Below, piece by piece: positions 20,311 through 47,676 of a DNA stretch of 64,000 nucleotides. The notes under the pieces were generated by a model. The model did no database searches and was not told the DNA's origin. It saw nothing but the letters and a program-made list of their open reading frames with translations. Each line of letters begins with the position of its first letter. The first letter of the stretch is position 1. The DNA is from Agromyces mariniharenae. GTDB lineage: Bacteria > Actinomycetota > Actinomycetes > Actinomycetales > Microbacteriaceae. Made by a program: the position numbers and the translations under genes. The stretch is taken from positions 2,340,891 through 2,404,890 of the forward strand of contig NZ_VSSB01000001.1 in assembly GCF_008122505.1 (NCBI RefSeq), read 5' to 3'.

Positions 20311-20381
20311 ATTCAGGCATTCAGCCCGGATTCAGGCCGGTTCGTGGCATCCGCGCCTGAATCCGCGCCGATCGCCTGAAT
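20311..20381. repeat. intergenic palindromic repeat, copy A (19-nt period family)
   Basis: Left arm ATTCAGG, second ATTCAGG 19 nt later; right arm two CCTGAAT units also 19 nt apart; the loop carries GGCATCCG. The arms pair over 26 nt with mismatches only in the middle. It lies between the TetR stop and aidB. Five related elements follow in the window. Confidence 0.85.
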
Positions 20382-20452
20382 CGCGCCGGGGCGCGAGCGG
20401 GAGGGGTGGCGAGGGCGGTCCGTGAGACCAGAATGGACCGCGGAGGTCGACG

Positions 20453-22156
20453 ATGAGCACGCACGAGGTCCTGAACCAGGCACCGGCCCGTGAGGGCGTC
20501 GACGAGTTCGCGGCGAACGTGCCGCTCGTCGAGGCCGTCGCGCGCTGGGGGCGCGGGGGGTCGCAGACGGGCGGCGGCTCGCCCGCGCCCGATTCGCCCG
20601 ACGCCGACGGCATCGACGCGGCATCCGTGCTGCACGACCTCGGACGGCACGTCGGCTCGGCCGCCTTCCAGCGCGACGCGGAGCGGGCGAACACCCAACC
20701 GCCGGTGCTGCACACGCACGACCGGTGGGGCGACCGCATCGACGAGGTCGAGTACGACGACGCGTACCACCGCATCATGGCCGCGGCGGTGGGCGCCGGC
20801 GCGCACACGTCGGCGTGGGCCGAGCCGGGTCCGGGCGCGAACGTCGAGCGCGCGGCGGCGTTCTTCCTGCTCGCGCAGGTCGAGCCCGGGCACGCGTGCC
20901 CGGTGTCGATGACGCACGCCGCCGTGCCGACGCTCGAGCTCGCGGCATCCGGGCTCGCGCGCGACTGGATGCCGCGGCTGCTGAGCCGGGAGTACGAGCC
21001 GGGGCTGGGCGGGTCGGGGGTCGCCAAGCGGTCGGCGCTCGTCGGCATGGCGATGACCGAGAAGCAGGGCGGATCGGACGTGCGTGCGAACACGACGCGC
21101 GCCGAGCCGACCGGATCCGACGGGCCGTGGGGCCGCGAGTTCCGGCTGACGGGCCACAAGTGGTTCTGCAGCGCGCCGATGAGCGACGCGTTCCTCGTGC
21201 TCGCGCAGGCGCCCGGCGGGCTCAGCTGCTTCTTCGTGCCGCGCGTGCTGCCCGACGGCTCGCGCAACGTGTTCCGCATCCAGCGCCTGAAGGACAAGCT
21301 CGGAAACCGGTCGAACGCGTCGAGCGAGATCGAGCTCGACGGCACGGCGGCGTGGCTCGTCGGCGACGAGGGCCGCGGCGTCGCGACGATCGTGCAGATG
21401 GTCACCCGCACGCGACTCGACTGCGTCATCGGCACGGCCGCGGGGATGCGCCAGGCGGTCGCCGAGGCTTCGTGGCACGTGCGACACCGTCGCGCGTTCG
21501 GCGAGCTCCTCGTCGACCAGCCCGCGATGCAGGCGGTCGTGGCCGACCTCGCGCTCGAGTCCGAGGCCGCGACGGTCACGGCGATGCGGCTCGCGCGCGC
21601 CTACGACGATGATGCGGATGCTTCGGAGCAGGCGTTCCGGCGCCTCGCCACGGCCGTGTCGAAGTACTGGGTCTGCAAGCGCGGCCCCGGTCATGCGCAT
21701 GAAGCCCTCGAGTGCCTCGGCGGCAACGGCTACACGGAGGCGTTCCCGCTCGCCCGGCGCTACCGCGAGCAGCCGCTGCTCGCCATCTGGGAGGGCTCGG
21801 GCAACGTCATCGCGCTCGACGTGCTGCGGGTGCTGGCCCGCGAGCCCGAGGCGTTCGACGCGTTCTTCGCCGTGGTCGCCGACGCGACGGGGGAGCACGC
21901 CGCGCTCGACCTCGAGGTCGCCGAGGCGCAGGCGGTCGTGCTCGAGGTGTCGCGGGATCCCGCGAGCGGCGCCGTGCGCGCCCGGGAGCTCACCGAGCGG
22001 CTCGCGCTCGTGCTGCAGGCGTCGCTGCTCGTGCAGCACGCGCCGGCCGCCGTCGCCGACGCGTTCGTGCGCTCGCGGATCGAGGGCGACGGCGGCACCA
22101 TGTACGGCGCGCTGCCGCCCGGCCTCGACACGGCCGCGATCCTCGCGCGGGCGTAG
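20453..22156 (+). CDS. aidB: AidB-like acyl-CoA dehydrogenase family flavoprotein
   Basis: 567 residues from ATG 20453 (GGAGG ribosome site). The opening LNQAP, long N-terminal domain, GMAMTEKQGGSDVRAN flavin-site motif, ECLGGNGYTEAFPLARRYREQPLLAIWEGSGNV and a C-terminal helical extension are diagnostic of AidB rather than of ordinary acyl-CoA dehydrogenases. E. coli AidB binds FAD and DNA and is induced by alkylating agents to protect DNA. The position of the C-terminal DNA-binding domain agrees in length (E. coli 541 residues). No operon partner; a palindromic repeat lies just upstream. Confidence 0.85.
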   Translation: MSTHEVLNQAPAREGVDEFAANVPLVEAVARWGRGGSQTGGGSPAPDSPDADGIDAASVLHDLGRHVGSAAFQRDAERANTQPPVLHTHDRWGDRIDEVEYDDAYHRIMAAAVGAGAHTSAWAEPGPGANVERAAAFFLLAQVEPGHACPVSMTHAAVPTLELAASGLARDWMPRLLSREYEPGLGGSGVAKRSALVGMAMTEKQGGSDVRANTTRAEPTGSDGPWGREFRLTGHKWFCSAPMSDAFLVLAQAPGGLSCFFVPRVLPDGSRNVFRIQRLKDKLGNRSNASSEIELDGTAAWLVGDEGRGVATIVQMVTRTRLDCVIGTAAGMRQAVAEASWHVRHRRAFGELLVDQPAMQAVVADLALESEAATVTAMRLARAYDDDADASEQAFRRLATAVSKYWVCKRGPGHAHEALECLGGNGYTEAFPLARRYREQPLLAIWEGSGNVIALDVLRVLAREPEAFDAFFAVVADATGEHAALDLEVAEAQAVVLEVSRDPASGAVRARELTERLALVLQASLLVQHAPAAVADAFVRSRIEGDGGTMYGALPPGLDTAAILARA

Positions 22157-22186
22157 GTCGCGAGCCTGCGCGGGCGCTCCCTCGCC

Positions 22187-22771
22187 TCAGCTCCGGATCG
22201 GCACGTACCGCGCGACCGTCACGCCCTTCGGAGTCGTCGTACTGTGCGTGAGCTCCATCGGCTGGTGCGTGGAGCCGAACAGCTTCGTGCCGGTGCCGAG
22301 CACGAGGGGGTGGATCACGAGCACGTACTCGTCGATCAGGTGCGCCGCCGCGAGCGACCGCACGACCATGCCGCTGCCGAGGATCGAGAGGTCGGGGCCA
22401 TCGCCGTGCTTCAGCGTGGCCACCGTCTTGATCGCGTCGCCGGCGAGGAGCGTCGAGTTCTCCCACTCGAGCCGGGTCGCCGCGTTCCGCGACACCACGA
22501 ACTTCTCGACGCGGTTCAGGTACTCGGTGTACGGGTTGCCGTCGGCCTGGTGCGGCCAGAACGCCGCCATGCTGCGGTACGTGCGGTGCCCGAACAGCAT
22601 CGCGCCGTCGGCGCCCATGCCGACGGCCATCTCGGCCGCCAGCGCGTCGTCGCTCCCCGCGATGGCCCATCCCCCGTACGGGAACTCGCCGCGGGTGTCC
22701 TCCTCACGCGACGCCGGCGCCTGCATGACGCCGTCGAGGGAGATGTTCTCGGTCACGGTGATCCTGCGCAT
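22187..22771 (-). CDS. dihydrofolate-reductase-fold (RibD C-terminal like) reductase
   Basis: 194 residues. Start ATG 22771 lies nine bases behind GGAGG; an ATG three codons earlier is too close to that site. MRRITVTENISLDGVMQAP, GHRTYRSMAAFWP, ILGSGMVVRSL and LVIHPLVLGTGTKLF are typical of the YyaP/YwjB-type DHFR-fold proteins, presumed NADPH-dependent reductases of unknown substrate. It converges with aidB. Confidence 0.85.
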   Translation of the reverse strand: MRRITVTENISLDGVMQAPASREEDTRGEFPYGGWAIAGSDDALAAEMAVGMGADGAMLFGHRTYRSMAAFWPHQADGNPYTEYLNRVEKFVVSRNAATRLEWENSTLLAGDAIKTVATLKHGDGPDLSILGSGMVVRSLAAAHLIDEYVLVIHPLVLGTGTKLFGSTHQPMELTHSTTTPKGVTVARYVPIRS

Positions 22772-22834
22772 GCGGCCCATCCTCCGCCCGGATGCCGCGC
22801 GCCGCCAGTGTCGGGCTCTGCGTGCCGCGCATGG

Positions 22835-22891
22835 CGAGAGTGCTCGAATGGTCGGTATCCGACGCCGGAAGCGACCGTTCGAGCACTCTCG
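22835..22891. repeat. long 20-bp stem inverted repeat
   Basis: Arms CGAGAGTGCTCGAATGGTCG and its complement with one G-T pair, 17-base loop. It lies between the Nudix stop (22918) and the reductase start (22771), both on the minus strand. It could end Nudix transcription, but there is no U-run. Confidence 0.75.
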
Positions 22892-22917
22892 AGAAGATGG
22901 GGGCGAGGCGAGCGGGA

Positions 22918-23376
22918 TCAGCCCGCGAGCAGCCGCTCGAGCGCCGCGAGCGCCGGGCGCTGGCCCTTCACGAGGCGGTCGAGCGCCTCGTCGGGGGTGA
23001 ACCAGGCCGCGGCATCCAGCTCGGGGAACGACTGGCGCCGCCCTGACCGGGGCGGCCACTCGATCTCGAACAGGTTGCTGCGCACGTCGTCGGGGTCGAA
23101 GTCGGACTCGCCCGCGAACACGTGCACCACCTTGCCCGAGGAGTAGCGGAACGCGCCGAGCTCCCGGTACTCGACATCGGGCGCGGGCCGGCCCACCTCC
23201 TCGGCGAACTCGCGCAGCGCGGCGGCGAGCGGCGTCTCGTCGGTGAAGGTGCCCTTGGGGATCGACCAGGCCGACGCATCCTTGCCGCGCCAGAACGGCC
23301 CGCCCATGTGCCCGAGGAACACCTCGAGCCCCGGCTGCCGCCGGTAGAGCAGGATGCCCGCGCTGGTCTCCGCCAT
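22918..23376 (-). CDS. Nudix hydrolase
   Basis: 152 residues from ATG 23376, apparently leaderless (TAGCGT six bases upstream). The Nudix box is GTFTDETPLAAALREFAEEVG: E-x7-REFAEEVG is intact, while the spacing from the first Gly to the first Glu is four residues instead of the usual five. AGILLYRR and WSIPKG place it with ADP-ribose/diadenosine-type or uncharacterised housekeeping Nudix proteins. It follows the GlcNAc-kinase-like gene by 26 bases on the same strand. Confidence 0.88.
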   Translation of the reverse strand: MAETSAGILLYRRQPGLEVFLGHMGGPFWRGKDASAWSIPKGTFTDETPLAAALREFAEEVGRPAPDVEYRELGAFRYSSGKVVHVFAGESDFDPDDVRSNLFEIEWPPRSGRRQSFPELDAAAWFTPDEALDRLVKGQRPALAALERLLAG

Positions 23377-23402
23377 GCGGACACGCTACCCCCGCCGCGC
23401 GC

Positions 23403-24416: not shown

Positions 24417-24496
24417 GGCCCGAGCCTACGGCCGGGGCATCCGACGCGCCCTCGTGAGGTCGCAGGTTTCCGGAAGATCACGATTTCGGAAATAAC

Positions 24497-24525: not shown

Positions 24526-24589
24526 ACTTCCCAGTGTCACATTCCGGGCGCGTGTCGCGCCATCGAGATTTCCAATGAAGGAGGCATCC

Positions 24590-25882: not shown

Positions 25883-25886
25883 GTCC

Positions 25887-32480: not shown

Positions 32481-32551
32481 ATTCAGGCAATCACCCTCCG
32501 CTCAGGACGCTTCCGCGGATTCCCGCCTGAATCCGGTCCGATCGGGTGAAT
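32481..32551. repeat. intergenic palindromic repeat, copy B (degenerate)
   Basis: ATTCAGG at the left end, GCTCAGG 19 nt later; right arm CCTGAAT and GTGAAT 19 nt apart. This is the least well preserved of the six. It follows the murR stop by 30 bases. Confidence 0.7.
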
Positions 32552-35828: not shown

Positions 35829-36203
35829 ATGAAGTACCTCATCCAGATCTACAGCAACCCCGAGTCGCGGGCGATGTGGGACAGCTTCACGCCCGAGCAG
35901 CAGGCCGAGGGCTACGCCTACTACCAGGCGATCAGCGAGGAGCTCGTGTCGAGCGGCGAGTACGTCGCCGCCGAGGCGCTCGCCGACGCCTCGCTCGCGA
36001 AGCGCGTGACGCAGACCGACGGCAGCGCCGTCGCGAGCGATGGCCCGTTCGCCGAGACGAAGGAGCTGCTCGCCGGGTTCTACCTCGTCGACTGCGAGAC
36101 CGAGGCCCGCGCGGTCGAGATCGCCGCCCGCTTCCCCGAGGCCGAGTTCGGGCTCATCGAGGTGCGCCCGGTGCTCGACATGGCCGCCCGCGGCGACGTC
36201 TGA
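35829..36203 (+). CDS. DGPF/YCII-related protein
   Basis: 124 residues, ATG 35829 behind AAGGAG. MKYLIQIYSNP opening, the DGPFAETKELLAGFYLVDC motif (SDGPF near residues 69-73) and EVRPVLDM end are typical of DGPF-domain proteins related to YciI. Such proteins are conserved partners of ECF42 sigma factors; their biochemical role is unclear. The sigma gene follows 26 bases later. Confidence 0.9.
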   Translation: MKYLIQIYSNPESRAMWDSFTPEQQAEGYAYYQAISEELVSSGEYVAAEALADASLAKRVTQTDGSAVASDGPFAETKELLAGFYLVDCETEARAVEIAARFPEAEFGLIEVRPVLDMAARGDV

Positions 36204-36229
36204 GGACGGGCGCGACGCCGGGTGAGACG

Positions 36230-37468
36230 ATGAGCGACGCCGTGAGCGACGCCGTCCGAGCACTGCGAGATGCCGCACCGTCGGCGCTCGCAGTGCTCGT
36301 GCGGCGCTACGGCGACTTCGAAGCGTGCGAGGACGCCATGCAGGAGGCGCTCATCGCGGCATCCGCCCAGTGGCCTCGCGACGGCGTGCCCGACAGCCCG
36401 CGCGCGTGGCTCGTGCAGGTGGCGTCGCGGCGCTACATCGACCAGGTGCGATCGGATGCCGCCCGCCGACGCCGCGAGTCGCTCGCCGCCGACCTCGAGC
36501 CGCCGCCCACCCCGGTCCCCGGCGTCGACGACACCCTCGCCCTGTTCCTGCTCTGCTGCCACCCCGCGCTCACCACGCCGTCGCAGGTGGCGCTCACGCT
36601 GCGGGCGGTCGGCGGACTCACCACCGCCGAGATCGCCCGCGCGCTGCTCGTGCCCGAGGCCACCGTCGCCCAGCGCATCTCGCGGGCGAAGGCGCGCATC
36701 AAGGCGAGCGACGAGGGCTTCCGGATGCCGCGCCCCGACGAGCTCGAGGCACGGCTCGGCGCGCTCCGCAGCGTGCTCTACCTCGTCTTCACCGAGGGGC
36801 ACACCGCGAGCTCGGGCGACCGGCTCGCCCGGGTCGACCTCTCGGCGGAGGCGATCCGGCTCACCCGACAGCTCCACGACGCCGACCCCGATGCCTCGGG
36901 CGAGACGACCGGGCTCCTGGCGCTCATGCTCCTCACCGACGCGCGCCGTGCCGCCCGCACCGACGACGCTGGTGCGATCGTGCCGCTCGACGAGCAGGAC
37001 CGGTCGCGCTGGGACCGGGCCATGATCGACGAGGGCGTCGCGCTCGTGACCGCGGTGCTCGACCGGGCGCCCATCGGCCCGTACCAGCTGCAGGCCGCGA
37101 TCGCGGCGGTGCACGATGAGGCGGACTCGACCGCGACGACCGACTGGCTCGAGATCCTCGGGCTCTACGACCTGCTCGCGCGCATGGCCCCGAGCCCGAT
37201 GGTCACGCTCGGACGCATCGTCGCCCTCGCCATGGTGGAGGGTCCCGAGCCGGGGCTCTTGGCGCTCGACCGCGCCGAGGCGGAGCACGACGGCGGGCTG
37301 TCCGACCACCACCGCACCTGGGCGGTGCGCGCACACCTGCTCGAGCAGTCGGGGTCGACGGATGCCGCGTCGCTCGCGTTCGCCGAGGCGGCGCGCCGCA
37401 CGCTCAACGGGCCGGAGCAGCGCTACCTCGCCGCGAAGGCCGAGCGCCTGCGCAGCTCGACGGGCTGA
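36230..37468 (+). CDS. ECF42-group extracytoplasmic-function sigma factor with C-terminal extension
   Basis: 412 residues from ATG 36230. Region 2 (residues about 12-80: YGDFEACEDAMQEALIAA, WLVQVASRRYIDQVR) and region 4 (TTAEIARALLVPEATVAQRISRAKARI, about 140-166) are followed by a 240-residue helical, TPR-like extension with LFTEGH-type YLVFTEGHTA and YQLQAAIAAVHDEA. This layout plus the DGPF neighbour identifies group ECF42, which lacks an anti-sigma factor and needs its C-terminal part for activity. It likely drives the DGPF operon from the TGTCGA-N17-CGAC promoter. Confidence 0.92.
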   Translation: MSDAVSDAVRALRDAAPSALAVLVRRYGDFEACEDAMQEALIAASAQWPRDGVPDSPRAWLVQVASRRYIDQVRSDAARRRRESLAADLEPPPTPVPGVDDTLALFLLCCHPALTTPSQVALTLRAVGGLTTAEIARALLVPEATVAQRISRAKARIKASDEGFRMPRPDELEARLGALRSVLYLVFTEGHTASSGDRLARVDLSAEAIRLTRQLHDADPDASGETTGLLALMLLTDARRAARTDDAGAIVPLDEQDRSRWDRAMIDEGVALVTAVLDRAPIGPYQLQAAIAAVHDEADSTATTDWLEILGLYDLLARMAPSPMVTLGRIVALAMVEGPEPGLLALDRAEAEHDGGLSDHHRTWAVRAHLLEQSGSTDAASLAFAEAARRTLNGPEQRYLAAKAERLRSSTG

Positions 37469-37500
37469 GCGGCCGCCCGCGGGATCGCGCACTCGCCGCA

Positions 37501-37562
37501 GGAATCCCGTCCGTGCGCCGGAATCCGGACCGGGCGGGATTCCAGCGCGTCAGCGGGATTCC
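37501..37562. repeat. intergenic palindromic repeat, copy C (variant unit GGAATCC)
   Basis: Same geometry as the ATTCAGG family: GGAATCC units 19 nt apart in the left arm, GGATTCC units 19 nt apart in the right arm, short GC loop. The unit differs from that in the other five copies. It lies between the convergent sigma gene and DUF1905 gene. Confidence 0.75.
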
Positions 37563-37571
37563 AGCGTGCGT

Positions 37572-37865
37572 TCAGAGGTCGAGCACCTCGAGGGCGACCT
37601 CGACGTCGTCGCCCTCCTCGATGCGCTCTGCGGTGCGCACGGCCTTCTTCACCGGCAGCACGTAGCTGCCCTGCTTCGAGTCGGGGAACACCGAGGTCGA
37701 CCAGGTCGTGCCGCCCACCGTGACGCGCACGCGCACCGACCCGAAGCCGCGCGGCATGCGCGGCACCTCGCGGATGTCGTCGCCGATCTCCTCGGGCAGG
37801 GTCACGAAGAACCAGCCGCCCTGCGCGCTCCACTCCCAGAGCGGCGCCGTGAAGCGGAATCGCAT
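37572..37865 (-). CDS. DUF1905 family protein
   Basis: 97 residues from ATG 37865, leaderless-looking (TAGCAT six bases upstream). FRFTAPLWEWSAQGGWFFVTLP, GGTTWSTSVFPDSKQGSYVLPVKKAVR and a closing VEVALEVLDL are characteristic of DUF1905, a small beta-barrel family of unknown function. The stop codon is 10 bases beyond repeat C. Confidence 0.88.
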   Translation of the reverse strand: MRFRFTAPLWEWSAQGGWFFVTLPEEIGDDIREVPRMPRGFGSVRVRVTVGGTTWSTSVFPDSKQGSYVLPVKKAVRTAERIEEGDDVEVALEVLDL

Positions 37866-37874
37866 GCCCGGATG

Positions 37875-38231
37875 CTACCGGCGACCACCGACGCGCCGGC
37901 GCCGGTCGCCCGGTCGGGACGCCGCCGGCTCGTCGGGGAGCGGAACCGTGGTGTGCTCGTCGGGCGCGCGCAGGGGCAGCGTCACGGTGACGGCCGGTGC
38001 GGTCGTGGCAGCCACGCCGGGCCCGACCGTCGCACTCGCCGGTTCCGCGTGCGGCGCGGTCGTGCGGGGCGGCGCGTCCTCCCGGAACAGGGCGACGAGC
38101 CGCTCGTGCGCGTCATCGTGCGGGGGCCGCGGCGCCGTGTGCGGGCTCCACTTCGCGCCGTCCCAGTAGCGCAGGATCGCGGCATCCGCGTCGTCGTCGT
38201 ACCACCCGGCCGCGCGTCGAGGCTCAGGCAC
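37875..38231 (-). CDS. DUF2510 domain protein
   Basis: 118 residues from GTG 38231, overlapping the end of the TauE/SafE gene by 8 bases. The first 30 residues, AAGWYDDDADAAILRYWDGAKWSPHT, are a DUF2510 domain (the W-Y-D...RYWDG..W motif). The rest is low-complexity Ala/Pro/Thr and ends in an Arg-rich tail (RRRRVGGRR). Such domains usually tag actinobacterial envelope proteins, but there is no membrane segment here. Confidence 0.75.
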   Translation of the reverse strand: MPEPRRAAGWYDDDADAAILRYWDGAKWSPHTAPRPPHDDAHERLVALFREDAPPRTTAPHAEPASATVGPGVAATTAPAVTVTLPLRAPDEHTTVPLPDEPAASRPGDRRRRVGGRR

Positions 38232-39039
38232 CGTCGCGTTCCTTCCGCGTGAGCCGCACGGCGCGCACGGCGAGCTGCACGGCCGCAACGACCATGAGCG
38301 CGGCGAACAGCCACGCCGACCACTCGGGCGAGAGCAGGAACGCGATCGCGACGCCGCCGAACGAGGCGATGGTCGCCGCGATGCCGACCACGAGGGCGAC
38401 CCGGAGGTCGACGATGCCCGCCCGCGTGTTCGCGACCGTGCCGCTGATCGCGGTGGGGAGCATCACGGCGAGCGACGTGCCCTTCGCCACGAGGTCGCTC
38501 ATGCCGAACAGCGCGATGAACGCGGGCACCATGATGACGCCGCCGCCGATGCCGAACAGGCCCGAGGCGATGCCGATCACGATGCCGAGCGCGATCATGC
38601 CGAGGATGGGAAGGACGTCGAACTCGATCGAGGAGTCGCCGCGAACGGGCGCGACGAGCACCATTCGCACCGCCACCGCGATGAGCAGGCCGACGAACAG
38701 CCACCGCAGCCAGCCGAGCGAGAGCCGCCGCAGCAGCCACGAGCCGATCCACGACCCGACGATGCCGCCGATCGCCACGAACAGCGCCGCGAGCAGGTCG
38801 ATCTCGCCGTTCGCGAAGTACGTGAGCGACCCCGCGAGTGCGGCGGGCACGATGGCCGCGAGCGAGGTGGCCGACGCGCGACGCTGGTCCATGCCCGCGA
38901 AGAGGATGAGGAGCGGGACCATGAGGATGCCGCCGCCGACGCCGAACGCGCCCGACAGCAGTCCGCCCGCCGCCCCGACGAGCGCGAGACGCACCCACGG
39001 CACGCGCGCCTGATCGGCGGGAGCGTCGGGGGAGGTCAC
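38224..39039 (-). CDS. TauE/SafE-family anion exporter
   Basis: 271 residues from GTG 39039, leaderless-looking (TACGCT six bases upstream). Eight hydrophobic helices arranged as two repeats, each opening with a Gly-rich motif: GLLSGAFGVGGGILMVPLL and GIASGLFGIGGGVIMVPAF. This twin motif defines the TauE/SafE (DUF81) family, which moves sulfite or sulfonates. No sulfur genes nearby, so the substrate is open. Confidence 0.92.
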   Translation of the reverse strand: MTSPDAPADQARVPWVRLALVGAAGGLLSGAFGVGGGILMVPLLILFAGMDQRRASATSLAAIVPAALAGSLTYFANGEIDLLAALFVAIGGIVGSWIGSWLLRRLSLGWLRWLFVGLLIAVAVRMVLVAPVRGDSSIEFDVLPILGMIALGIVIGIASGLFGIGGGVIMVPAFIALFGMSDLVAKGTSLAVMLPTAISGTVANTRAGIVDLRVALVVGIAATIASFGGVAIAFLLSPEWSAWLFAALMVVAAVQLAVRAVRLTRKERDGA

Positions 39040-39070
39040 CCGCCCAGCGTAGCGGCGCGCGGCCGCGGGA

Positions 39071-39622
39071 TCAGGCCGCGCGGTCGCCGGCGGCGAGCAG
39101 CACGGTGGACTCGGTGCGCTCGGTGGCGCCGATGCTTATGGACGGGTCGGCGACGACGTCGGGCAGCGACTCCATGGCCGGAACCGCCACCGGCAGCGCC
39201 GCGGCCACCCGGGCGGATCGGCGTACCATGCGGCCGGCGAGCACGAGCAGGACGCCGAAGACGGCGCCCGCCGTGTTCATCACGAGATCGCGCGGGTCGG
39301 AGATGCGGTGCGGCTCGGGCACCTGGATGAGCTCGATGACGGTGGTGAACGCCAGCCCAGCGAGCAGCGCGAGCGCCCAGCGGCGGCGTGGGATGAGCAG
39401 GGCGGCGAGCACGCCGACGGGGATGAACAGCGCCACGTTGAACGCCATCTCGGAGAGGTACCCGGTGGTCCAGGTGGTCGTCGCCGTCCACGACTCGGGA
39501 TTGAGGATGCCGCCGTCGAGCTGGCTGCCGCTGCTCGTGCGCCAGGGCGTGGGCCCGACCGTCACCCACAGCACGAGGGCTGCGTAGGCGAGGGCGACGA
39601 ATCGCAGGGGGCGGCGGTTCAT
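39071..39622 (-). CDS. VanZ-like membrane protein
   Basis: 183 residues from ATG 39622 (GGAGGA site). Four or five helices; EMAFNVALFIPVGVLAALL, VIELIQ and DPRDLVMNTAGAVFGVLL are VanZ-family motifs. The C-terminal 45 residues are a soluble Ser/Val-rich tail. VanZ relatives can lower glycopeptide binding, but most are uncharacterised. Confidence 0.85.
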   Translation of the reverse strand: MNRRPLRFVALAYAALVLWVTVGPTPWRTSSGSQLDGGILNPESWTATTTWTTGYLSEMAFNVALFIPVGVLAALLIPRRRWALALLAGLAFTTVIELIQVPEPHRISDPRDLVMNTAGAVFGVLLVLAGRMVRRSARVAAALPVAVPAMESLPDVVADPSISIGATERTESTVLLAAGDRAA

Positions 39623-40039
39623 CCCACGATTCTCCTCCGGTTCCCTATGAGCAGGCTGGCACGTTGCCGCATGTCCGCCGATCACCGCCGATGCCCTCCT
39701 GTCGAGGACGAGTCGCGCCGGCTGGGGGTCGAGTCGGCCGGGTCGGGCGCGCCGCATCGCCGCGTCACCGCACGTCACCTGTGGATGAAACCGTGCCGGA
39801 TCGGCCGGAGTGCATTAGTGTTGGTTGACCTCCATCAGCGGGCATTCGCCCGCGCCTCCACCTGATTGCCCGGAGGCGGACCGATCCGCATGGCATGACC
39901 CGATACGAGACGGCGGATGCCGAGTGCACCCCGCCCCTCGCCCAAGACGCCTCGGCGGCACCGTGTCGCCGGAGCCGCGATCGACCGCCGATCGCACCGG
40001 GCACGCAGCCGGCGGCCCGCATGAGAGAAGGACAGCAGT
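39623..40039. other. 417-base gap: long leader of cspA
   Basis: No coding sequence with plausible codon use. A TANNNT hexamer (TAGTGT, 39816-39821) may be a -10 box, and a hairpin GCGGGC-ATTC-GCCCGC lies at 39838-39853. From there a leader of about 190-210 bases would precede cspA, the size expected of cold-shock mRNAs whose 5' region folds differently at low temperature. Confidence 0.45.
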
Positions 40040-40243
40040 ATGGCAACCGGAACCGTCAAGTGGTTCAACGCCGAAAAGGGCTTCGGCTTCATCGCCCCCG
40101 ACGACGGCAGCGCCGACGTCTTCGCGCACTTCAGCGCCATCACGGGCAGCGGCTACCGCTCGCTCGAAGAGGGCCAGAAGGTCGAGTTCGAGGTGGCGCA
40201 GGGCCCCAAGGGCCTGCAGGCCGAGAACATCCGCGGGCTCTAG
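40040..40243 (+). CDS. cspA: cold-shock protein of the CspA family
   Basis: 67 residues from ATG 40040 (AGAAGGAC site). RNP1 motif [11 protein letters not shown] and RNP2-like VFAHFSAI are intact, with [11 protein letters not shown] at the start. Binds single-stranded RNA/DNA as an RNA chaperone. Its length and composition fit the family exactly. Confidence 0.95.
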
Positions 40244-40256
40244 GCTTCGCACAACC

Positions 40257-40289
40257 GGACGCCGTCGCGACTCGCTCGCGGCGGCGTCC
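40257..40289 (+). terminator. hairpin terminator of cspA
   Basis: 13-bp stem GGACGCCGTCGCG with its complement (one G-T pair), 7-base loop, 13 bases after the cspA stop. Confidence 0.7.
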
Positions 40290-40346
40290 GTCGTCTCGGC
40301 CGGGGCCGGACACGGCGGTCGGGCTCAGCCGGGGCGTGACTCGGGC

Positions 40347-41219
40347 TCAGCTGGGGCGCACGGATGCCGCGGCATCCGTCACCTCGTCGCGCCACGAGTG
40401 CCGCGGCTCGTATCCGAGCATGCGGCGCGCCTTGTCGATCGAGAGCATCGTGTCGTTGACGCCGAGGTCGCCGCGCACGGGCACGTCGGGGAACACCTCC
40501 GCGACGAGCTCGGCGTTCGGCCGGGTCATGACGGTGTCGGCCGCGGCGATGATGTAGCGCTCGAAACCGGGGTGCGCCGTGGCGAGCGCGAGGCTCACGG
40601 CCTGCGCGCCGTCGCGTGCGTCGATGTAGCCCCAGAGGTTCCACTTGCGCAGGCTCGCGTCGGCGTCGAACGACGGGAACGCGTCGTAGTCGGCGGGGTC
40701 CATGACGTTCGAGAAGCGCAGCGCCGTGATCGAGAGCTCGGGGTGCCAGCGCACGAGCTCGATCGCCATCTGCTCCTCGAGGTGCTTCACGAGCGAGTAC
40801 GTGCTCTCGGGCCGGGCCGCGTACTCCTCGTCGACGGGGATGTACGGCGGCGGCACGTCGAAGGGGAGGCCGAGCACCGTCTCGCTCGACGCGTAGACGA
40901 TGCGCGTGATGCCGAGGCGGCGGGCCGCCTGGAACACGTTGAACGTCGACAGCATGTTGTTGTGGAAGGTCGCGACATCGCTCACGATGCCGGGCGCCGG
41001 GATCGCGGCGAGGTGCACGATCGCGTCGACCCCGGCGTGCCGGTCGTCGACGCCCGCGATGGCGTCGATCACCTGACCGTAGTCGGTGAGGTCGACCCGA
41101 GTGACCGACTCGCGGTCCCCCTGCTGGTCGAGGTTCACCACCTCGTGGCCCTCGTCGCGGAGCGTGCGGACGACGGTGCGGCCGAGCTTGCCCGACCCTC
41201 CGGTGACGGCGATGCGCAT
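40347..41219 (-). CDS. NAD-dependent epimerase/dehydratase (extended SDR)
   Basis: 290 residues from ATG 41219, leaderless-looking (CAGACT six bases upstream). GGSGKLG (residues 7-13) binds NAD(P), and the catalytic YSLVK motif sits near residue 142 after the YASSETV strand. The sequence resembles sugar-nucleotide or uronate dehydrogenase-like SDRs; substrate unknown. Confidence 0.88.
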   Translation of the reverse strand: MRIAVTGGSGKLGRTVVRTLRDEGHEVVNLDQQGDRESVTRVDLTDYGQVIDAIAGVDDRHAGVDAIVHLAAIPAPGIVSDVATFHNNMLSTFNVFQAARRLGITRIVYASSETVLGLPFDVPPPYIPVDEEYAARPESTYSLVKHLEEQMAIELVRWHPELSITALRFSNVMDPADYDAFPSFDADASLRKWNLWGYIDARDGAQAVSLALATAHPGFERYIIAAADTVMTRPNAELVAEVFPDVPVRGDLGVNDTMLSIDKARRMLGYEPRHSWRDEVTDAAASVRPS

Positions 41220-41235
41220 GCCCCAAGTCTGGCAC

Positions 41236-41266
41236 CGGATGCCGCGGCGGCGCGTCGCGGCATCCG
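41236..41266 (-). terminator. hairpin between epimerase and M14 genes
   Basis: Perfect 11-bp stem CGGATGCCGCG / CGCGGCATCCG with a 9-base loop, 7 bases beyond the M14 stop. The stem is made of the GGATGCC motif that is common across the window. Confidence 0.7.
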
Positions 41267-41273
41267 TCGCCGT

Positions 41274-42845
41274 TCAGCGCCGGCGCGCGCCCGCTTTCGT
41301 GGACGCCTTCGCCGTCGGTGCGCCGTTCTCGACGGCCTTCGGCTTCGCGTTCGACCCGGTCGTCGCCCGGCCGCGCGCCGCCGGCGCCTTCGGCTTCGCA
41401 CCCGGCGGCTGCACCATCAGGCGCTCGATCGCCTTCGCCATCGTGACGCCGCGCATGGCGTCGAGGTGCACCTCGATCGCGCGGAGGTCCTTCCGCAGCT
41501 CGGGGTCGTCGACGCGCGTCCGGAGCCGCCGCACGACCCTCACCCCCACGTCGACCTCCTCGGTCGTGAGCTTGGCCGTGTCGTCGCGGGCGAGGCCCGC
41601 GCTGCGCTTCACGAGCTCGGCGGTCTCGCCGAGCAGGTCGCGGTCCTGCAGCGCCGCGGCCAGCACGGGCACCTCCACGCGTTCGAACAGGGCGATCCAC
41701 TCGCGTCCGGCGTCGGTGGTGGCGAGCAGCTTGTCGCGCACCTTCCGCAGCGCGTTGACCTCGGTCTGCGCGCGGAAGAACTGGAGTCCGATGAGCTCGA
41801 TCGCGCAGATGCTCTGCTGGAGCAGCGCCACCATGCCCGACTTCGCGTCGCGCTTCACGGGCTCGGGGTCGGCGGGGTGGAACGATTCCTCGGCCGAGCC
41901 CACGTAGGGTCCCGTCTCGAACGTGAACCCGTAGGTCTTGCCGAGTCGTGAGCTCGCGATGTGCCGGCTGTAGGCGTAGTCGCTCCACGTGCCGGTGGTG
42001 GGGTAGAGGGCGACGCTCGCCTGGTTCGCGTAGGTGCGACCCCGAACCGCCGCGATGGCGTCGCGGATGCGTCCGCCGACCGTCGTGAACCGCTGCAGGT
42101 CGCGCGGCGGGAGGTACTCCTGGTAGCCGGGGACGCCGATCGGTGCGCACGTGCCGGTCGGCAGCGTCGTGAACTTCTTCGACGGATCGGTGGTCTGCGT
42201 CGGGGCGTGCCCCCACGGCCAGAGGATGAGCTCGGAGTACGAGTGCACGTCGACGAACGTGTCGACACGGTGCGTGTCGAGCAGGTGCTTCACGTTGCGG
42301 TTCTCGGGCTCGCTGAACGCGCTCGGCCCGACGTAGATGTCGGTGCACGGGTTGCACGAGGTCTGGCCCTGCGTCACGCCCCACACGAAGTCGGCGTTGC
42401 GGTTGAGGTCGACGCCGATGCACGAGGTGCCCGCGTTCGAGCGACGGTTCTTGCGCCACATGCCGTCGACGGTCATCACGTGCACGCGCCCGTCGGGATT
42501 CACGCACGGGACCATCCAGATGTCGAGGGCCTCGAGGATGAGCTTGACGTCGGCGGCGGGCCAGCGCCGGCCCCCGTACACGAGGTCCCGCTCGTTGACG
42601 TAGCTCGTGAACAGGTCGACGGCGAGCTCGACGATCGCGTCGGGATTCATGAGCTCACGCGCGTGCGTGCCGCCGACGAGCAGCACGCCGCGTCGCTCGG
42701 GTCCCGTGCCGGCGCGCAGCCGGAGGGCGAAGACGGGGCGTCCCTGCACGGATGCCTCGGGGAGCTGGATCCGCGTGAAGTAGTCGGGGAACCAGGTGGC
42801 GAGGAGCTGCGTCAGCGAGTCGAGCTGCGCGACGGTGCGGTACAT
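41274..42845 (-). CDS. M14 zinc carboxypeptidase without signal peptide
   Basis: 523 residues; its ATG shares one base with the stop of the upstream gene (TGATG). Zinc ligands are visible: GGTHARELMNPD (His60/Glu63 region), VDVHSYSE for the third ligand, the substrate motif VDLNRNADFVWG, and FTFETGP with the catalytic Glu near residue 325. After about residue 360 comes a helical extension and a low-complexity Ala/Lys/Arg tail (KASTKAGARRR). No secretion signal, unlike the M14 gene at the left edge, so it may act inside the cell or leave with help. Confidence 0.85.
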   Translation of the reverse strand: MYRTVAQLDSLTQLLATWFPDYFTRIQLPEASVQGRPVFALRLRAGTGPERRGVLLVGGTHARELMNPDAIVELAVDLFTSYVNERDLVYGGRRWPAADVKLILEALDIWMVPCVNPDGRVHVMTVDGMWRKNRRSNAGTSCIGVDLNRNADFVWGVTQGQTSCNPCTDIYVGPSAFSEPENRNVKHLLDTHRVDTFVDVHSYSELILWPWGHAPTQTTDPSKKFTTLPTGTCAPIGVPGYQEYLPPRDLQRFTTVGGRIRDAIAAVRGRTYANQASVALYPTTGTWSDYAYSRHIASSRLGKTYGFTFETGPYVGSAEESFHPADPEPVKRDAKSGMVALLQQSICAIELIGLQFFRAQTEVNALRKVRDKLLATTDAGREWIALFERVEVPVLAAALQDRDLLGETAELVKRSAGLARDDTAKLTTEEVDVGVRVVRRLRTRVDDPELRKDLRAIEVHLDAMRGVTMAKAIERLMVQPPGAKPKAPAARGRATTGSNAKPKAVENGAPTAKASTKAGARRR

Positions 42846-43192
42846 CAGCCCTCCTCCTCACGCGGGATGCCGGCGACGCGTTCGTCGAGCCAGCGCTTCG
42901 CGTCCTCGTCGGACTGGATGAGCTTCGGATCGAGCGGCTCGATCGGCACGGTGCGGAACACCCGCACCTCGTAGCCGCGCCGCACGAGCTCGGCGAGCTC
43001 GTCCGCCGTGACGACCACCCGCACCCCGCCCTGCGGATCGGGGATGCGGTCGAGGTCGAGGTCGGACACCTGGCTCAGGGCGACGTCGCGCTCGCCGGGG
43101 TGGACCGTCGCCTCGAAGCGGGCGCCCTGCTGGCGGCCCGGCCCCTCGTCGACGCCGTCATCGCGCTCGTCGCGCTTCGATCGCCTGGCCAT
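42845..43192 (-). CDS. hypothetical protein coupled to the M14 peptidase
   Basis: 115 residues from ATG 43192 (GGGGGAAG site). Charged N-terminal half (RRSKRDERDDG), then a compact domain VRVVVTADELAELVRRGYEVRVFRTVPIEPLDPKL. Not recognised. Stop and start overlap the following M14 gene, so the two are co-translated; it could be a propeptide-like or regulatory partner of the peptidase. Confidence 0.65.
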   Translation of the reverse strand: MARRSKRDERDDGVDEGPGRQQGARFEATVHPGERDVALSQVSDLDLDRIPDPQGGVRVVVTADELAELVRRGYEVRVFRTVPIEPLDPKLIQSDEDAKRWLDERVAGIPREEEG

Positions 43193-43206
43193 GGGACTTC
43201 CCCCTC

Positions 43207-43244
43207 AGGTCGATGGCACGCCCGAAGGTCGATGGCGCGCCCGA
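43207..43244. repeat. 19-bp tandem duplication
   Basis: Two adjacent copies of AGGTCGATGGCACGCCCGA differing at one base, in the gap between two divergent genes. A shorter GCGGGCACGTCGA repeat follows. Recent slippage is the simplest cause. Confidence 0.75.
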
Positions 43245-43437
43245 CGTGCTCGCGCGGGCACGTCGACTCGTGCGGGCACGTCGAACGGGCTCCCCCCGGA
43301 CCCCTCTGGGCGTCAACGTACTCCCGCCGCAGAAGTGACGCAACCTCATGTTCCGATGGGCTCTCGGATGCCGCGTCGGACACGTCGGATGCCGCAACCC
43401 CCTCCCACCGGACGGGCACCGAGCCTAGCCTCGCACC

Positions 43438-44094
43438 ATGCCAAGGGACGTCGAGCGACCCGGCGCCGAGCAGTGGGTCCCCGAGGACGCGAACGTCGAC
43501 GAGCTGCGTCGCGCCGCGCCCGACTGCCGTGGCTGCGAGCTCTGGCGCGACGCCACGCAGGTGGTGTTCTCGCGCGGTCGCCAGGGGGCGGCGCTCATGC
43601 TCGTGGGCGAGCAGCCCGGTGACCGCGAGGACCTCGAGGGGGAGCCCTTCGTGGGTCCGGCCGGGCGGCTGCTCGCCGACGCGGTCGACGCGGCGGGCAT
43701 CGCCCGCGAACGGGTGTACGTCACGAATGCCGTGAAGCACTTCCGCTTCGAGCGGCGCGGCAAGCGGCGCATCCACGAGAAGCCGTCGGTCGCCCACATC
43801 GTCGCCTGCCGCCCCTGGCTCGAGGCCGAGTTCGAGGCGGTCCAGCCCGCGGTCGTGGTCGCGCTCGGAGCGACCGCGGCCCGCTCGGTGCTCGGTCGCA
43901 CGGTGCGCATCGGCGAGATCCGCGGCAGGGTCATGCCGCCGGATGCCGCAGGCGGGGCACCCGCGCTGCCGGCGCCCGTGCTCGTGACGACGCATCCGTC
44001 GGCGTTGCTTCGGATCGACGACGCCGCCGACCGAGCCGCAGCCTTCGAGGCGCTCGTCGACGACCTGCGCACGGCAGCGGATGCCGCGGGCTGA
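43438..44094 (+). CDS. udgX: UdgX-type uracil-DNA glycosylase
   Basis: 218 residues from ATG 43438 (TAGCCT six bases upstream, leaderless pattern). Iron-sulfur Cys pair CRGC (30, 33) plus Cys124, motif A GEQPGDREDLEG, VTNAVKHFRF, and the UdgX-specific loop KRRIHEKP with His113, which in UdgX forms a covalent bond to the abasic site after uracil removal. HPSALLR is motif B. UdgX therefore tags uracil sites irreversibly, unlike family 4 enzymes. No operon partner. Confidence 0.95.
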   Translation: MPRDVERPGAEQWVPEDANVDELRRAAPDCRGCELWRDATQVVFSRGRQGAALMLVGEQPGDREDLEGEPFVGPAGRLLADAVDAAGIARERVYVTNAVKHFRFERRGKRRIHEKPSVAHIVACRPWLEAEFEAVQPAVVVALGATAARSVLGRTVRIGEIRGRVMPPDAAGGAPALPAPVLVTTHPSALLRIDDAADRAAAFEALVDDLRTAADAAG

Positions 44095-44204
44095 TCTACC
44101 GCGACCGCGGTTCGTGCGCGCGGCATCCCGGCGTCTTCGGAGCTTCGCTCAATAGGGTCGTCGAGACGCCGATGTTCGCGGACGACCCTGAGGAGGATCC
44201 CCCG

Positions 44205-44558
44205 ATGCAGTGCCCCAACGACGGAACCGTGCTCGTGATGAGCGAGCGCAGCGGCATCGAGATCGACTACTGCCCGACCTGCCGCGGCGTGTGGCTCGAC
44301 CGCGGCGAGCTCGACAAGATCATCGAGCGCGACGCCCGCGAGTTCGGCCAGGCCGCGTCGGCCGCCCAGGCCCCCGCAACGCCGCCCGCGCCGCCGCAGG
44401 CGCCCCAGTACCAGCAGCCGGCCTATGGGCAGCAGTCGTACGACCCCCGGTACGACCGCGGCTATGACAACCGCGGCTACGACAACCGCGGTTACGGCGA
44501 CCAGGGCCAGTACCGCAAGAAGAAGAAGGAGAGCTGGCTCTCCGACCTCTTCGACTGA
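44205..44558 (+). CDS. TFIIB-type zinc-ribbon protein with Gly/Tyr-rich tail
   Basis: 117 residues from ATG 44205, chosen for AGGAGG upstream; an earlier ATG at 44172 has none. MQCPNDGTVLV ... DYCPTCRGVWLDRGELDKIIERD is a zf-TFIIB domain (CxxD, CPxC). The rest is a disordered Pro/Gln/Tyr region with RGYDN repeats and a final KKKKESWLSDLFD. Function unknown in the family. Confidence 0.88.
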   Translation: MQCPNDGTVLVMSERSGIEIDYCPTCRGVWLDRGELDKIIERDAREFGQAASAAQAPATPPAPPQAPQYQQPAYGQQSYDPRYDRGYDNRGYDNRGYGDQGQYRKKKKESWLSDLFD

Positions 44559-44593
44559 GCCTCGACCCCACGGATGCCGCGCGCTCGGCCGCC

Positions 44594-44664
44594 ATTCAGG
44601 CGATCGGCGGCGATTCAGGCTGCGCTGCGGCATCCGCGCCTGAATTCCCGCCGATCGCCTGAAT
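44594..44664. repeat. intergenic palindromic repeat, copy D (best preserved)
   Basis: Left arm starts ATTCAGGCGATCGGCGG with a second ATTCAGG at +19; the right arm is its complement over 27 nt with two mismatches. The loop contains GCGGCATCCG. Lies between two convergent genes (zinc ribbon and PfpI). Confidence 0.88.
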
Positions 44665-44698
44665 CGGGGCATCCGCCGGCACGTCACCGACGTGGGAC

Positions 44699-45400
44699 TC
44701 AGGCGGCGAGCGCCTCGAGCACCCGGCGCGCGACCGAGGCGCTCGACTGGGGGTTCTGCCCGGTGATGAGGTTGCGGTCGACGACGACGTGGTCGCTCCA
44801 GGGCGCAGCCGACTCGATGACGGCGCCGGCGTCGCGGAGCGCGGTCTCGACCCACCACGGGGTGTTCTCGCCGGTGCCGCCGGTGCGCTCCTCCTCGTCG
44901 GTGAAGACGGTGAGGCGGCGCCCGGCGAAGGCATTGGTGCCATCGGCGAGCGTCGCCGACAGCAGCGCGGCGGGTCCGTGGCAGAACGGCGCGATGATCG
45001 TGCCGGCGTCGTTCGCGGCGACGAGCACGCGGCCGACGCCCGCGTCGGACGCGAGGTCGGCCATCGGGCCATGGCCGCCCGGAAGCACGACCGCGGCGTA
45101 GTCGGCGGGGTCGACGTCGGCGACGGGTACCGCGGCGGCGAGCTCGCCGGCGATCGACGCGAGGTACGCCTCCAGCTCGCGCACCGTCTCGGCGCTCCCG
45201 ACGACCGCCGCGTCGAGGCTCACCGCGTCGACGGTGGGCGTGACGCCGCCCGGCGTCGCGATCGTGACGCGGTGGCCGGCTGCGACGAGGTCGCGGTGCG
45301 CCGTCACGAGCTCCTCGGCCCAGAAGCCGGTCGGATGCTCCGACCCGTCCTTCATGGTGAGGCTGGTCGCCCCGGTGACGATCATGAGGAGGTTGCGCAT
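44699..45400 (-). CDS. DJ-1/PfpI-family protein (Hsp31-like)
   Basis: 233 residues from ATG 45400. Catalytic Cys elbow IIAPFCHGPAALL (Cys near residue 137), VVLPGGHGPM and NTPWWVE fit the Hsp31/type 1 glutaminase-fold group. Such proteins act as glyoxalase III, chaperones or amidases. Ends just beside repeat D. Confidence 0.9.
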   Translation of the reverse strand: MRNLLMIVTGATSLTMKDGSEHPTGFWAEELVTAHRDLVAAGHRVTIATPGGVTPTVDAVSLDAAVVGSAETVRELEAYLASIAGELAAAVPVADVDPADYAAVVLPGGHGPMADLASDAGVGRVLVAANDAGTIIAPFCHGPAALLSATLADGTNAFAGRRLTVFTDEEERTGGTGENTPWWVETALRDAGAVIESAAPWSDHVVVDRNLITGQNPQSSASVARRVLEALAA

Positions 45401-45468
45401 TCGTGGTCCTGTCCTGAGTGGTGTGCGAGTTGGGGGATGGGGTTCGTGGATCGGGTCGCACCTTCGCG

Positions 45469-45535
45469 ATTCAGGCGATCGCCCGCGATTCAGGACGGAT
45501 TCCGTGATCTCGGCCTGAATTCCGCGCGATCGCCT
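45469..45535. repeat. intergenic palindromic repeat, copy E
   Basis: ATTCAGGCGATCG with second ATTCAGG at +19; right arm CCTGAATTC and CGATCGCCT, last AAT lost where a 17-bp tandem array begins. Lies between PfpI start and the MFS stop. Confidence 0.85.
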
Positions 45536-45602
45536 GCGCAGCCTGCGGGCCTGCGCAGCGTGCGGGCCTGCGCAGCGTGCGGGCCTGCGCAGCGTGCGGG
45601 CC
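45536..45602. repeat. four tandem copies of a 17-bp unit
   Basis: GCGCAGCGTGCGGGCCT repeated four times (first copy one change, last copy one base short), directly abutting palindrome E. No spacers of unique sequence, so not CRISPR. Confidence 0.9.
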
Positions 45603-45626
45603 ATGCGTGCATGGTCCGGGCGCGAC

Positions 45627-46862
45627 TCAGGCGACGGATGCCGCGGGCTCGCGCTCGGGTGAGGCGGGCGTCGTCGCGGCATCCGCTCGGGGCGCGTTCG
45701 CGGCATCCGCTCGCCCTGCGCGACGAGCGGCGACGGCCGCGACCGTCATGACCGCGAGCGCGGCGAGCGTGATGACCGTGCCGGCCCAGATGGGCGACGT
45801 GTAGCCGAGGCCCGCGGTGATGCCGACGCCGCCCGCGAACGCGCCGAGCGCGTTGCCGAGGTTGAACGCGCCGATATTCGCACCCGACGCGAGCGTGGGG
45901 GCCGAGGCGGCGTAGCGCATGATGCGGCTCTGGAGCCCGGGCACCGTGCCGAACCCGAAGGCGCCCATGAGCACGAGCAGCACCACGGTGGCGACGGGAC
46001 TCCAGGCGAGCCAGGCGAAGAGCGCCAGCACGACGACGAGCGCGCCGATGAAGGCGAGCAGGGTGCCGTCGATCGAGCGGTCGGCGAGGCGTCCGCCGAC
46101 CCAGTTGCCGACGACGAGGCCCGCGCCGAAGAGCACGAGCAGCCACGGCACCGCGTTCGCCGCGAAGCCGCTGACCTCGGTGAGCGTGTAGGCGATGTAG
46201 GTGAACGCCCCGAACATGCCGCCGAAGCCGAGCACGGTGACGAGGAGCGAGAGCCACACCTGTCCCGAGCGGAACGCGCCGAGCTCGCGACGCAGGCTCG
46301 GGGCCGGCCCGTCGCGGTGGAGTGCAGGGACGAGCGTGGCGATGCCGACGAGGGCGAGCACGCCGATCGCCGCGATCACCCAGAACGTCGAGCGCCAGCC
46401 GAACTGCTGGCCGAGGAACGTGCCGAACGGCACGCCGAGCACGTTCGCGGCGGTGAGGCCGGTGAACATGATCGCGATGGCGCCCGCGGCCTTCTCGGGA
46501 GCGACGAGGCCGGCCGCGACGACCGAGCCGATGCCGAAGAACGCGCCGTGGCAGAGCGCCGCGATGACGCGTCCGGCCATCATGAGCTCGTAGGTCGGGG
46601 CCAGCGCCGAGAGGGCGTTGCCCACGATGAAGAGCACGAGCAGGCCCATGAGCACGGGCTTGCGGGGGAGACGGGTGGTGGCGGCCGTGAGCCCGAGCGC
46701 CCCCACGACGACGGCGAGCGCGTAGCCCGAGATGAGCCAGCCCGCCGCCGCCTCGGTGACGCCGAAGTCGGCGGCCACCTCGGGCAGCAGGCCCATGATG
46801 ACGAATTCGGTGAGGCCGATGCCGAAGCCCCCGATGGCGAGGGCGACGAGTCCGAGTGGCAT
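45627..46862 (-). CDS. MFS efflux transporter (DHA1/AraJ type)
   Basis: 411 residues from ATG 46862 (AGGAGA site). Twelve helices, short loops; GLTEFVIMGLLPEVAADFGVT opening and TGLTAANVLGVPFGTFLGQQFGWRSTFW are the motifs of AraJ/CmlA-like drug or sugar efflux pumps. It diverges from a MarR gene with palindromes between, so MarR probably represses it until a toxic compound binds. Confidence 0.9.
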   Translation of the reverse strand: MPLGLVALAIGGFGIGLTEFVIMGLLPEVAADFGVTEAAAGWLISGYALAVVVGALGLTAATTRLPRKPVLMGLLVLFIVGNALSALAPTYELMMAGRVIAALCHGAFFGIGSVVAAGLVAPEKAAGAIAIMFTGLTAANVLGVPFGTFLGQQFGWRSTFWVIAAIGVLALVGIATLVPALHRDGPAPSLRRELGAFRSGQVWLSLLVTVLGFGGMFGAFTYIAYTLTEVSGFAANAVPWLLVLFGAGLVVGNWVGGRLADRSIDGTLLAFIGALVVVLALFAWLAWSPVATVVLLVLMGAFGFGTVPGLQSRIMRYAASAPTLASGANIGAFNLGNALGAFAGGVGITAGLGYTSPIWAGTVITLAALAVMTVAAVAARRAGRADAANAPRADAATTPASPEREPAASVA

Positions 46863-46909
46863 GCGGAAGATCTCCTGGGAAGCGGTAAGATAGTTGCAGA
46901 CGCGCTCTA

Positions 46910-46942
46910 TTGCGAACGCAGGCATAATACTTGCACACGCAA
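46910..46942. promoter_or_regulatory. MarR operator candidates between MFS and marR
   Basis: TTGCGAACGCA (46910-46920) and TTGCACACGCAA (46931-46942) are short palindromes flanking CATAAT. A wider pair TAGTTGC (46891) and GCAACTA (46956) encloses them. The region is AT-rich and holds both divergent promoters. Confidence 0.6.
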
Positions 46943-46991
46943 ATACAAAGCGCAAGCAACTACTTTCGCCGACCAGACCGAGGAGCATCAC

Positions 46992-47447
46992 ATGGGCATC
47001 GCCGACGACGCGGTCGAGGTGCGCGCACAGGGCTGGCGCACGCTCGCGGCACTGCACGGCATGATCGAGGCCGAGCTCGAGCGCGCGCTCGCGGCGTCGG
47101 TCGACCTCTCGGTCGTCGAGTACACCGTGCTCGACGCGCTGAACCGGCAGGACGGCTGGCACATGCGCATGCAGCAGCTGGCCCGCGCCGCCGCGCTCAG
47201 CCCGAGCGCCACCACGCGCCTCGTGAACCGGCTCGAGGATCGCGCGCTGCTCACGCGCATCCTCTGCGCCGACGACCGGCGCGGCATCTACACCGAGCTC
47301 ACGCCGGCCGGCCGGGCGCTCTACGAGCGGGCGCGCCCGATCCACGACGAGACGCTCGAGCGCGTGCTCGCCGAGGCCGCCGACCAGCCCGAGCTCTCGC
47401 CCGTCGTCGAGGCGCTGCACGGCGCCGCGGTGCCGGCCGCCGGCTGA
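46992..47447 (+). CDS. MarR-family transcriptional regulator
   Basis: 151 residues from ATG 46992 (GAGGAGC site). Winged helix QQLARAAALSPSATTRLVNRLEDRALLTRILCADDRRGIYTELTPAG, with the DDRR wing typical of MarR. Two helices at each end form the dimer. Divergent from the MFS pump it most likely controls. Confidence 0.92.
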   Translation: MGIADDAVEVRAQGWRTLAALHGMIEAELERALAASVDLSVVEYTVLDALNRQDGWHMRMQQLARAAALSPSATTRLVNRLEDRALLTRILCADDRRGIYTELTPAGRALYERARPIHDETLERVLAEAADQPELSPVVEALHGAAVPAAG

Positions 47448-47484
47448 GCGTCGAGCGGCGCGGCTGCGGCGCGACGCGAGCACG

Positions 47485-47553
47485 ATTCAGGCGATCGGTC
47501 GCGATTCAGGCCGCGATGCGGCATCCGTGCCTGAATCGGGACCGATCGCCTGA
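47485..47553. repeat. intergenic palindromic repeat, copy F
   Basis: ATTCAGGCGATCGGTCGCG then ATTCAGG at +19; right arm CCTGAATCGGG and CCGATCGCCTGA. Loop holds GCGGCATCCG. It abuts a TGAGC tandem array, just as copy E abuts a 17-bp array. Confidence 0.88.
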
Positions 47554-47668: not shown

Positions 47669-47676
47669 CGTGATCG

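Follow-up and report, generated by a model that had tools for sequence, protein, structure and literature searches.

Four-unit palindromes of Agromyces mariniharenae and a candidate partner protein with AbiEi-like and Vsr-like parts

A stretch of 64,000 nt from Agromyces mariniharenae (contig NZ_VSSB01000001.1, positions 2,340,891 to 2,404,890; hereafter the window) carries six intergenic palindromes of one design: a 7-bp unit, the unit again 19 nt later, a short loop, and two inverted units, likewise 19 nt apart. Five are built from ATTCAGG (family A) and one from GGAATCC (family B), and the question raised by this locus is what is served by an arrangement in which the unit can be exchanged while spacing and inversion stay. 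The explanation that we consider probable is a mobile system resembling that of repetitive extragenic palindromic (REP) elements and REP-associated tyrosine transposases (RAYT), in which each palindrome would present four binding sites to a dedicated protein. The proposal is built on sequence evidence, namely the linkage of gene and palindrome, the diversity and coherence of the units, their dispersal, the presence or absence of the insertion, the conservation of the units and the predicted fold of the protein; from these we infer the binding, the cutting, the mode of spread and a former partner of family A.

Geometry and genomic copies of the palindromes

Rereading of the sequence confirmed the six elements at their positions (Table 1) and a unit-to-unit distance of 19 nt in every arm. 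The original prediction of one unit in all four places held for the elements at 20311, 37501 and 44594, while those at 32481, 45469 and 47485 contain altered units; when the altered fourth units are counted, the ends of the last two move to 45539 and 47555. The centre gap between the inner units is 19 nt in all five family A elements of the window and 10 nt in the family B element.

The window was scanned for four such 7-mers with unit identity left free, at periods 14 to 26, and compared with 60 shuffles. At period 19, four places were found with at most one mismatch (shuffle mean 0.017) and six with at most two (shuffle mean 0.15, maximum 1); the other periods gave 0–2 places each. Four of the six are the known elements 20311, 37501, 44594 and 47485, and the remaining two, at 52491 and 58644, are probably chance matches. 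The scan misses 32481 and 45469, whose units have changed too much; these two were recognised by comparison with the copy at 20294-20383, to which they show 66% and 61% similarity.

At least three palindrome families are present in the genome: A, with nine elements (eight found by pattern, plus 32481), and B, with 14 elements, both at period 19, and C (unit TGCGCCA), with 14 places at period 20. The expected further copies thus exist; the exact half-patterns ATTCAGG-N12-ATTCAGG and GGAATCC-N12-GGAATCC occur 12 and 26 times, and the reversed-pattern controls 0 times. Family A is slightly more worn than B, with 10 of 252 unit letters altered against 5 of 392 (hand count, p = 0.03). The B copy at C1:803760 contains extra tandem 19-bp units. 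Tandem runs of 19-bp units extending from one arm with the period kept were seen for GGAATCC at locus L015 of this genome and for ATTCAGG in two others (G173:C93:98837 and G294:C181:47103).

According to a simple purpose-made gene caller, the 23 family A and B elements all fall between genes, which are convergent in 11 cases, tandem in 11 and divergent in one; for comparison, the window gaps longer than 60 nt are 20 tandem, nine divergent and three convergent. As originally predicted, the elements lie just past gene ends: 22 of the 23 are next to a gene 3' end, and for 20 of these the distance is 6–40 nt. Moreover, all 23 are located within 1.16 Mb of dnaA in the 4.08-Mb genome, which might suggest chromosome-organising sites marking the origin half. 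Similar counts were obtained for G026 (eight elements within 1.13 of 2.19 Mb), G009 (13 within 1.04) and G117 (five within 0.92 of 1.78). However, the bound was fixed after inspection, family C is not so confined, reaching 1.62 Mb from dnaA with two further places on contig C2, and both A and B are missing from most members of the genus, so that a role of this kind has a very small probability.

A candidate partner protein and its flanking palindromes

Two family B copies bracket a gene encoding a 336-aa protein elsewhere in the genome, and its paralogue (C1:266048-266995, locus L105) is bracketed by two copies of family C. The protein is predicted to combine a DNA-binding module similar to AbiEi with a nuclease domain like those of Vsr and the homing endonuclease I-Bth0305I: in the predicted model the N-terminal 206 residues have the AbiEi fold, and residues 209-327 resemble Vsr and I-Bth0305I. 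Its Pfam match is AbiEi_4, the PADLOC AbiEi models match most members of the family (PDLC02228 in 32 of 38), and the best matches in a viral fold library are phage proteins named DUF559 and Vsr. The acidic and basic residues of the putative nuclease site are invariant across 38 aligned members. The search of PDB sequences gave no match and that of NCBIfam nothing relevant. Two PF04480 (DUF559) genes of the same genome were considered as partners and rejected, the stretches around them containing no palindrome.

Homologues show a patchy distribution, being present in 69 of 120 relatives. Their flanks were scanned, with the unit left free, for sets of four 7-mers in which two direct units precede two inverted ones. 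Among the 140 flanks (500 bp each) of 70 loci, 41 gave period 19 and 12 gave period 20, against 0–4 for the other periods from 13 to 26 and shuffle means of 0–0.33; the 159 flanks of 80 named loci gave 36, 16 and 0–1. The pooled 150 loci, from relatives across Actinobacteria, were reduced to 125 after the removal of duplicates, of which 67 carry at least one flank palindrome and 31 are two-sided (64 and 30 with periods 19 and 20 alone). The spacing is fixed, not random: among the 98 flank elements, 72 have period 19 and 22 period 20, the remaining three at 21 and one at 18 being probably due to chance. As a control, 527 flanks of other genes were taken from 400 kb of G009: none had an element of period 19 or 20, while six had one at 18 and one at 21.

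The period is equal on both sides in 29 of the 31 two-sided loci, and the units of the two sides agree better than random pairs do (5.9 against 3.3). A dozen or more unit sequences occur in these flanks, including GGAATCC, TCGGAGG, GAGTGCC, TGCGCCA, TTGAGTG, TGAACCC, GGACACA, GAGAAACC, TGTTTCC, ATCCGCT, TCAGGGT and GTGAGGA. One genome (G102) has three homologues, one of them with an internal stop, that carry three different units, each on both sides. Unit classes track the protein tree, requiring 8 changes against 19.9 in shuffles, among 38 members chosen because their unit belonged to a class of at least two. It is thus the arrangement that is common to these elements, with periods 19 or 20 and the inversion kept and many units in use, as had been supposed from the window.

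The flank units also recur elsewhere in the genomes, as predicted. Three genomes contain 32, 44 and 16 half-matches to the Dietzia unit ATCCGCT at period 20, against a control of 0. TGCGCCA, at period 20, gave 17 half-matches at the 14 places of A. mariniharenae, 20 in G004, 13 in G012, 11 in G036, four each in G005 and G022, three in G030 and single ones in four genomes, with a control of four in total over 60 genomes. TCGGAGG was found five times in G018, whose gene carries this unit, once in each of four others and not in A. mariniharenae (control 2). With the genomes sorted by the fetched homologue loci, at least two B half-matches were present in five of six genomes with a B-flanked gene against three of 114 others, and at least two C half-matches in four of four genomes with a C-flanked gene against three of 33 others.

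Gain, loss and competing explanations

In four genomes (G000, G009, G026 and G015), the gene with its two palindromes is located between convergent Stealth and metallophosphoesterase genes. Among 30 loci of this metallophosphoesterase family in relatives, four have the insertion, 14 have both host genes and no insertion, and in 12 the Stealth gene is not in the stretch. Twelve of the 14 insertion-free junctions have 55–273 nt between the matches, and two have about 0.8 and 1.2 kb. No target-site duplication was obvious by eye, the flanks being strongly diverged. In the A. mariniharenae locus, no AbiEii toxin gene is present beside the partner gene.

A further view of turnover comes from orthologous palindromes (nine pairs at six sites, one of them backed by right-hand neighbours only). 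Identity is 240 of 252 positions in units, 113 of 192 in spacers and 29 of 70 in loops, with pairs of unequal length excluded for spacers and loops. The units are therefore kept while the intervening DNA drifts, a conservation to which gene conversion between copies might contribute. The window elements themselves were not found in the syntenic region of G009, where no period-19 place with at most one mismatch occurs in 400 kb and the matching gaps contain none even with up to three. Two host genes flanking a single B element of A. mariniharenae (L028, C1:1571325) are about 11 kb apart in G009 (L070, G009:C1:1464500-1478800), and the extra DNA has a family A element near each end.

In the proposed mechanism, an AbiEi-like winged-helix module would read one 7–9 bp unit in each 19–20 bp repeat, with four modules per palindrome. 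The partner gene, bracketed by copies of its own palindrome, is present as an insertion in intergenic space, and the palindrome alone is scattered, mostly just beyond gene 3' ends. The spread probably begins with a nick or cut made at the palindrome by the Vsr/I-Bth0305I-type domain, after which copies would enter intergenic gaps. A change of specificity in a protein lineage would change the four units together, while the spacing (19 or 20) and inversion would stay.

The conservation of units would also be expected of working sites of a regulator, one that controls its own gene and acts at other gene ends through dispersed operators, its nuclease domain having another role or being a relic. 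AbiEi and Rv2827c repress their own operons via inverted repeats, according to PMC7319586. However, in the 31 two-sided loci a copy is also located behind the gene, the position of 22 of 23 A and B elements at gene 3' ends, 11 of them between convergent genes, is ill-suited to promoter control, the nuclease residues are invariant, and gene and palindromes are gained or lost as a block. We consider such a regulator rather unlikely. An AbiEi-like defence nuclease, for which the palindromes would be self marks or storage sites, agrees with the PADLOC matches and with the patchy distribution, but the gene stands alone between its host genes with no AbiEii partner in the locus examined, and insertion with its own palindromes on both sides is a habit of mobile elements; this explanation is decidedly improbable.

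Several results weigh against the proposed mobile system. No palindrome was found at 58 of the 125 homologue loci. For family A, which supplies five of the six elements in the window, no partner gene was found: there is no homologue in the fetched stretches around the A elements of this genome, in the window, in the G009 loci L070 and L071 or in the 3-kb stretches from a search of 398 genomes. The 98 flank elements include none built from ATTCAGG; TCAGGGT, at L205, comes closest. Family A would then be an orphan whose partner has been lost or is too diverged. The locus L205, from Microbacteriaceae bacterium BIN30, has a homologue bracketed by TCAGGGT at period 20 and offers a weak lead to such a partner. 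Orphan families like A, with unit TGCGCCA, may also be represented by the 20 and four period-20 half-matches in G004 and G022, where no homologue with this unit in its flanks was seen.

The folding of the elements is likewise a point against the proposal. In five of the six elements of the window, the predicted folding is much stronger than in shuffled sequences (z -4.0 to -9.1), and the arms of family A match beyond permutation (p = 0.009, n = 9). Together with the 11 of 23 elements between convergent genes, this would speak for RNA hairpins or cruciform DNA, for example bidirectional terminators, acting with no dedicated protein. The arms nevertheless show no covariation beyond the family consensus in B (p = 0.85) or in Dietzia (p = 0.06; 0.43 without one identical pair). 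The element 32481 folds no better than shuffles, and no T-run follows the four elements in 36000-48500, which speaks against the suggested terminator role. Moreover, a hairpin requires neither a cognate gene nor a repeat of the same unit at a fixed distance of 19 nt within each arm, and this explanation appears highly improbable. As judged from the sequences, four protein sites are the best reading of the arrangement; the sites are not simply on one DNA face, as had been suggested, because 19 bp is about 1.8 turns of B-DNA by arithmetic.

Known systems and details of the window

The system of REP elements, REPINs and RAYTs (REPtron), as described in PMC3733652 and PMC3116915, likewise has short dispersed extragenic palindromes, several families per genome and a nuclease-type gene flanked by its own repeats. 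In contrast, in place of an HUH tyrosine transposase (TnpA-REP) there is here an enzyme with predicted AbiEi and Vsr folds, the GTAG/CGTC end tag given in PMC3733652 is lacking from the A and B sequences, and there are four repeated units at 19–20 bp and tens of copies, not hundreds. Since it differs in two defining features, enzyme class and tag, the system was not filed under REP/RAYT. The likeness is functional, and under a broad definition of palindrome plus nuclease the system would be a variant. The REP-like role with a linked gene that had been suggested therefore stood in part, a linked gene being found for B and C, not for A, and encoding an AbiEi-like/Vsr-like nuclease instead of a RAYT.

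The N-terminal fold and the PADLOC AbiEi matches link the protein to the AbiEi antitoxins of type IV toxin-antitoxin systems, among them Rv2827c. According to PMC7319586, AbiEi has two 23-bp inverted repeats as binding sites, and Rv2827c has four. The present protein differs by its predicted C-terminal nuclease domain, by the lack of a toxin gene at the locus examined and by sites that are also behind the gene and genome-wide. Vsr and EDxHD homing endonucleases such as I-Bth0305I resemble the predicted fold of residues 209-327, but the partner gene is not in an intron or intein, and it is bracketed by palindromes with dispersed copies. The AbiEi-like module replaces the known DNA-binding parts of these enzymes. 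Miniature inverted-repeat transposable elements and insertion sequences also combine gene-less copies with a gene-bearing form that has matching ends, and show presence or absence at one site; unlike these, the present system lacks a transposase of the DDE or HUH type, and a complete palindrome forms each of its ends. No target duplication was obvious in the diverged flanks.

No description of this system was found in the open-access literature, with preprints and most subscription papers outside the search, and novelty in print is not established. No mobile system was found to which the enzyme pairing or the four-site repeat is homologous, and we therefore treat it, with evenly divided confidence, as a new class of actinobacterial mobile DNA: four-site palindromes spread by a Vsr/homing-type nuclease on an AbiEi module whose unit has been re-specified many times within a fixed 19/20-bp geometry, giving a natural series of matched protein-DNA specificities. 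If so, it would be a second, unrelated route to REP-like dispersed palindromes, via a Vsr-type nuclease rather than an HUH transposase, and would provide a concrete genomic setting for proteins at present annotated as AbiEi antitoxin or hypothetical protein. Since in many cases the gene has its own unit on either side, matched specificities of protein and DNA could be read directly from genomes and tested, and the spread of repeats could be traced in culture.

Table 1. Four-unit palindromes of the window, with positions counted from its first letter.
Element	Position	Strand	Units	Centre gap (nt)	Gene context
Family A	20311..20381	.	ATTCAGG at 20311 and 20330, CCTGAAT at 20356 and 20375	19	
Family A, worn	32481..32551	.	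ATTCAGG, GCTCAGG, CCTGAAT, GGTGAAT	19	
Family B	37501..37562	.	GGAATCC at 37501 and 37520, GGATTCC at 37537 and 37556	10	convergent: extracytoplasmic function (ECF)-type sigma factor gene; DUF1905 gene
Family A	44594..44664	.	all four intact	19	convergent: zinc-ribbon protein; DJ-1/PfpI
Family A	45469..45539	.	fourth changed to CCTGCGC	19	beyond 3' end of major facilitator superfamily (MFS) transporter gene
Family A	47485..47555	.	fourth changed to CCTGAGC	19	convergent: MarR-type regulator; glyoxalase-like

Rfam gave no match in the window at gathering thresholds. Tandem repeats adjoin the right ends of two family A elements exactly at the altered fourth units, at 45532-45607 (17-bp unit, 4.4 copies) and 47550-47613 (5-bp CTGAG unit, 12 copies). 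The sequence GGATGCCGC/GCGGCATCC occurs 79 times in the window, both strands summed and genic and intergenic places included.
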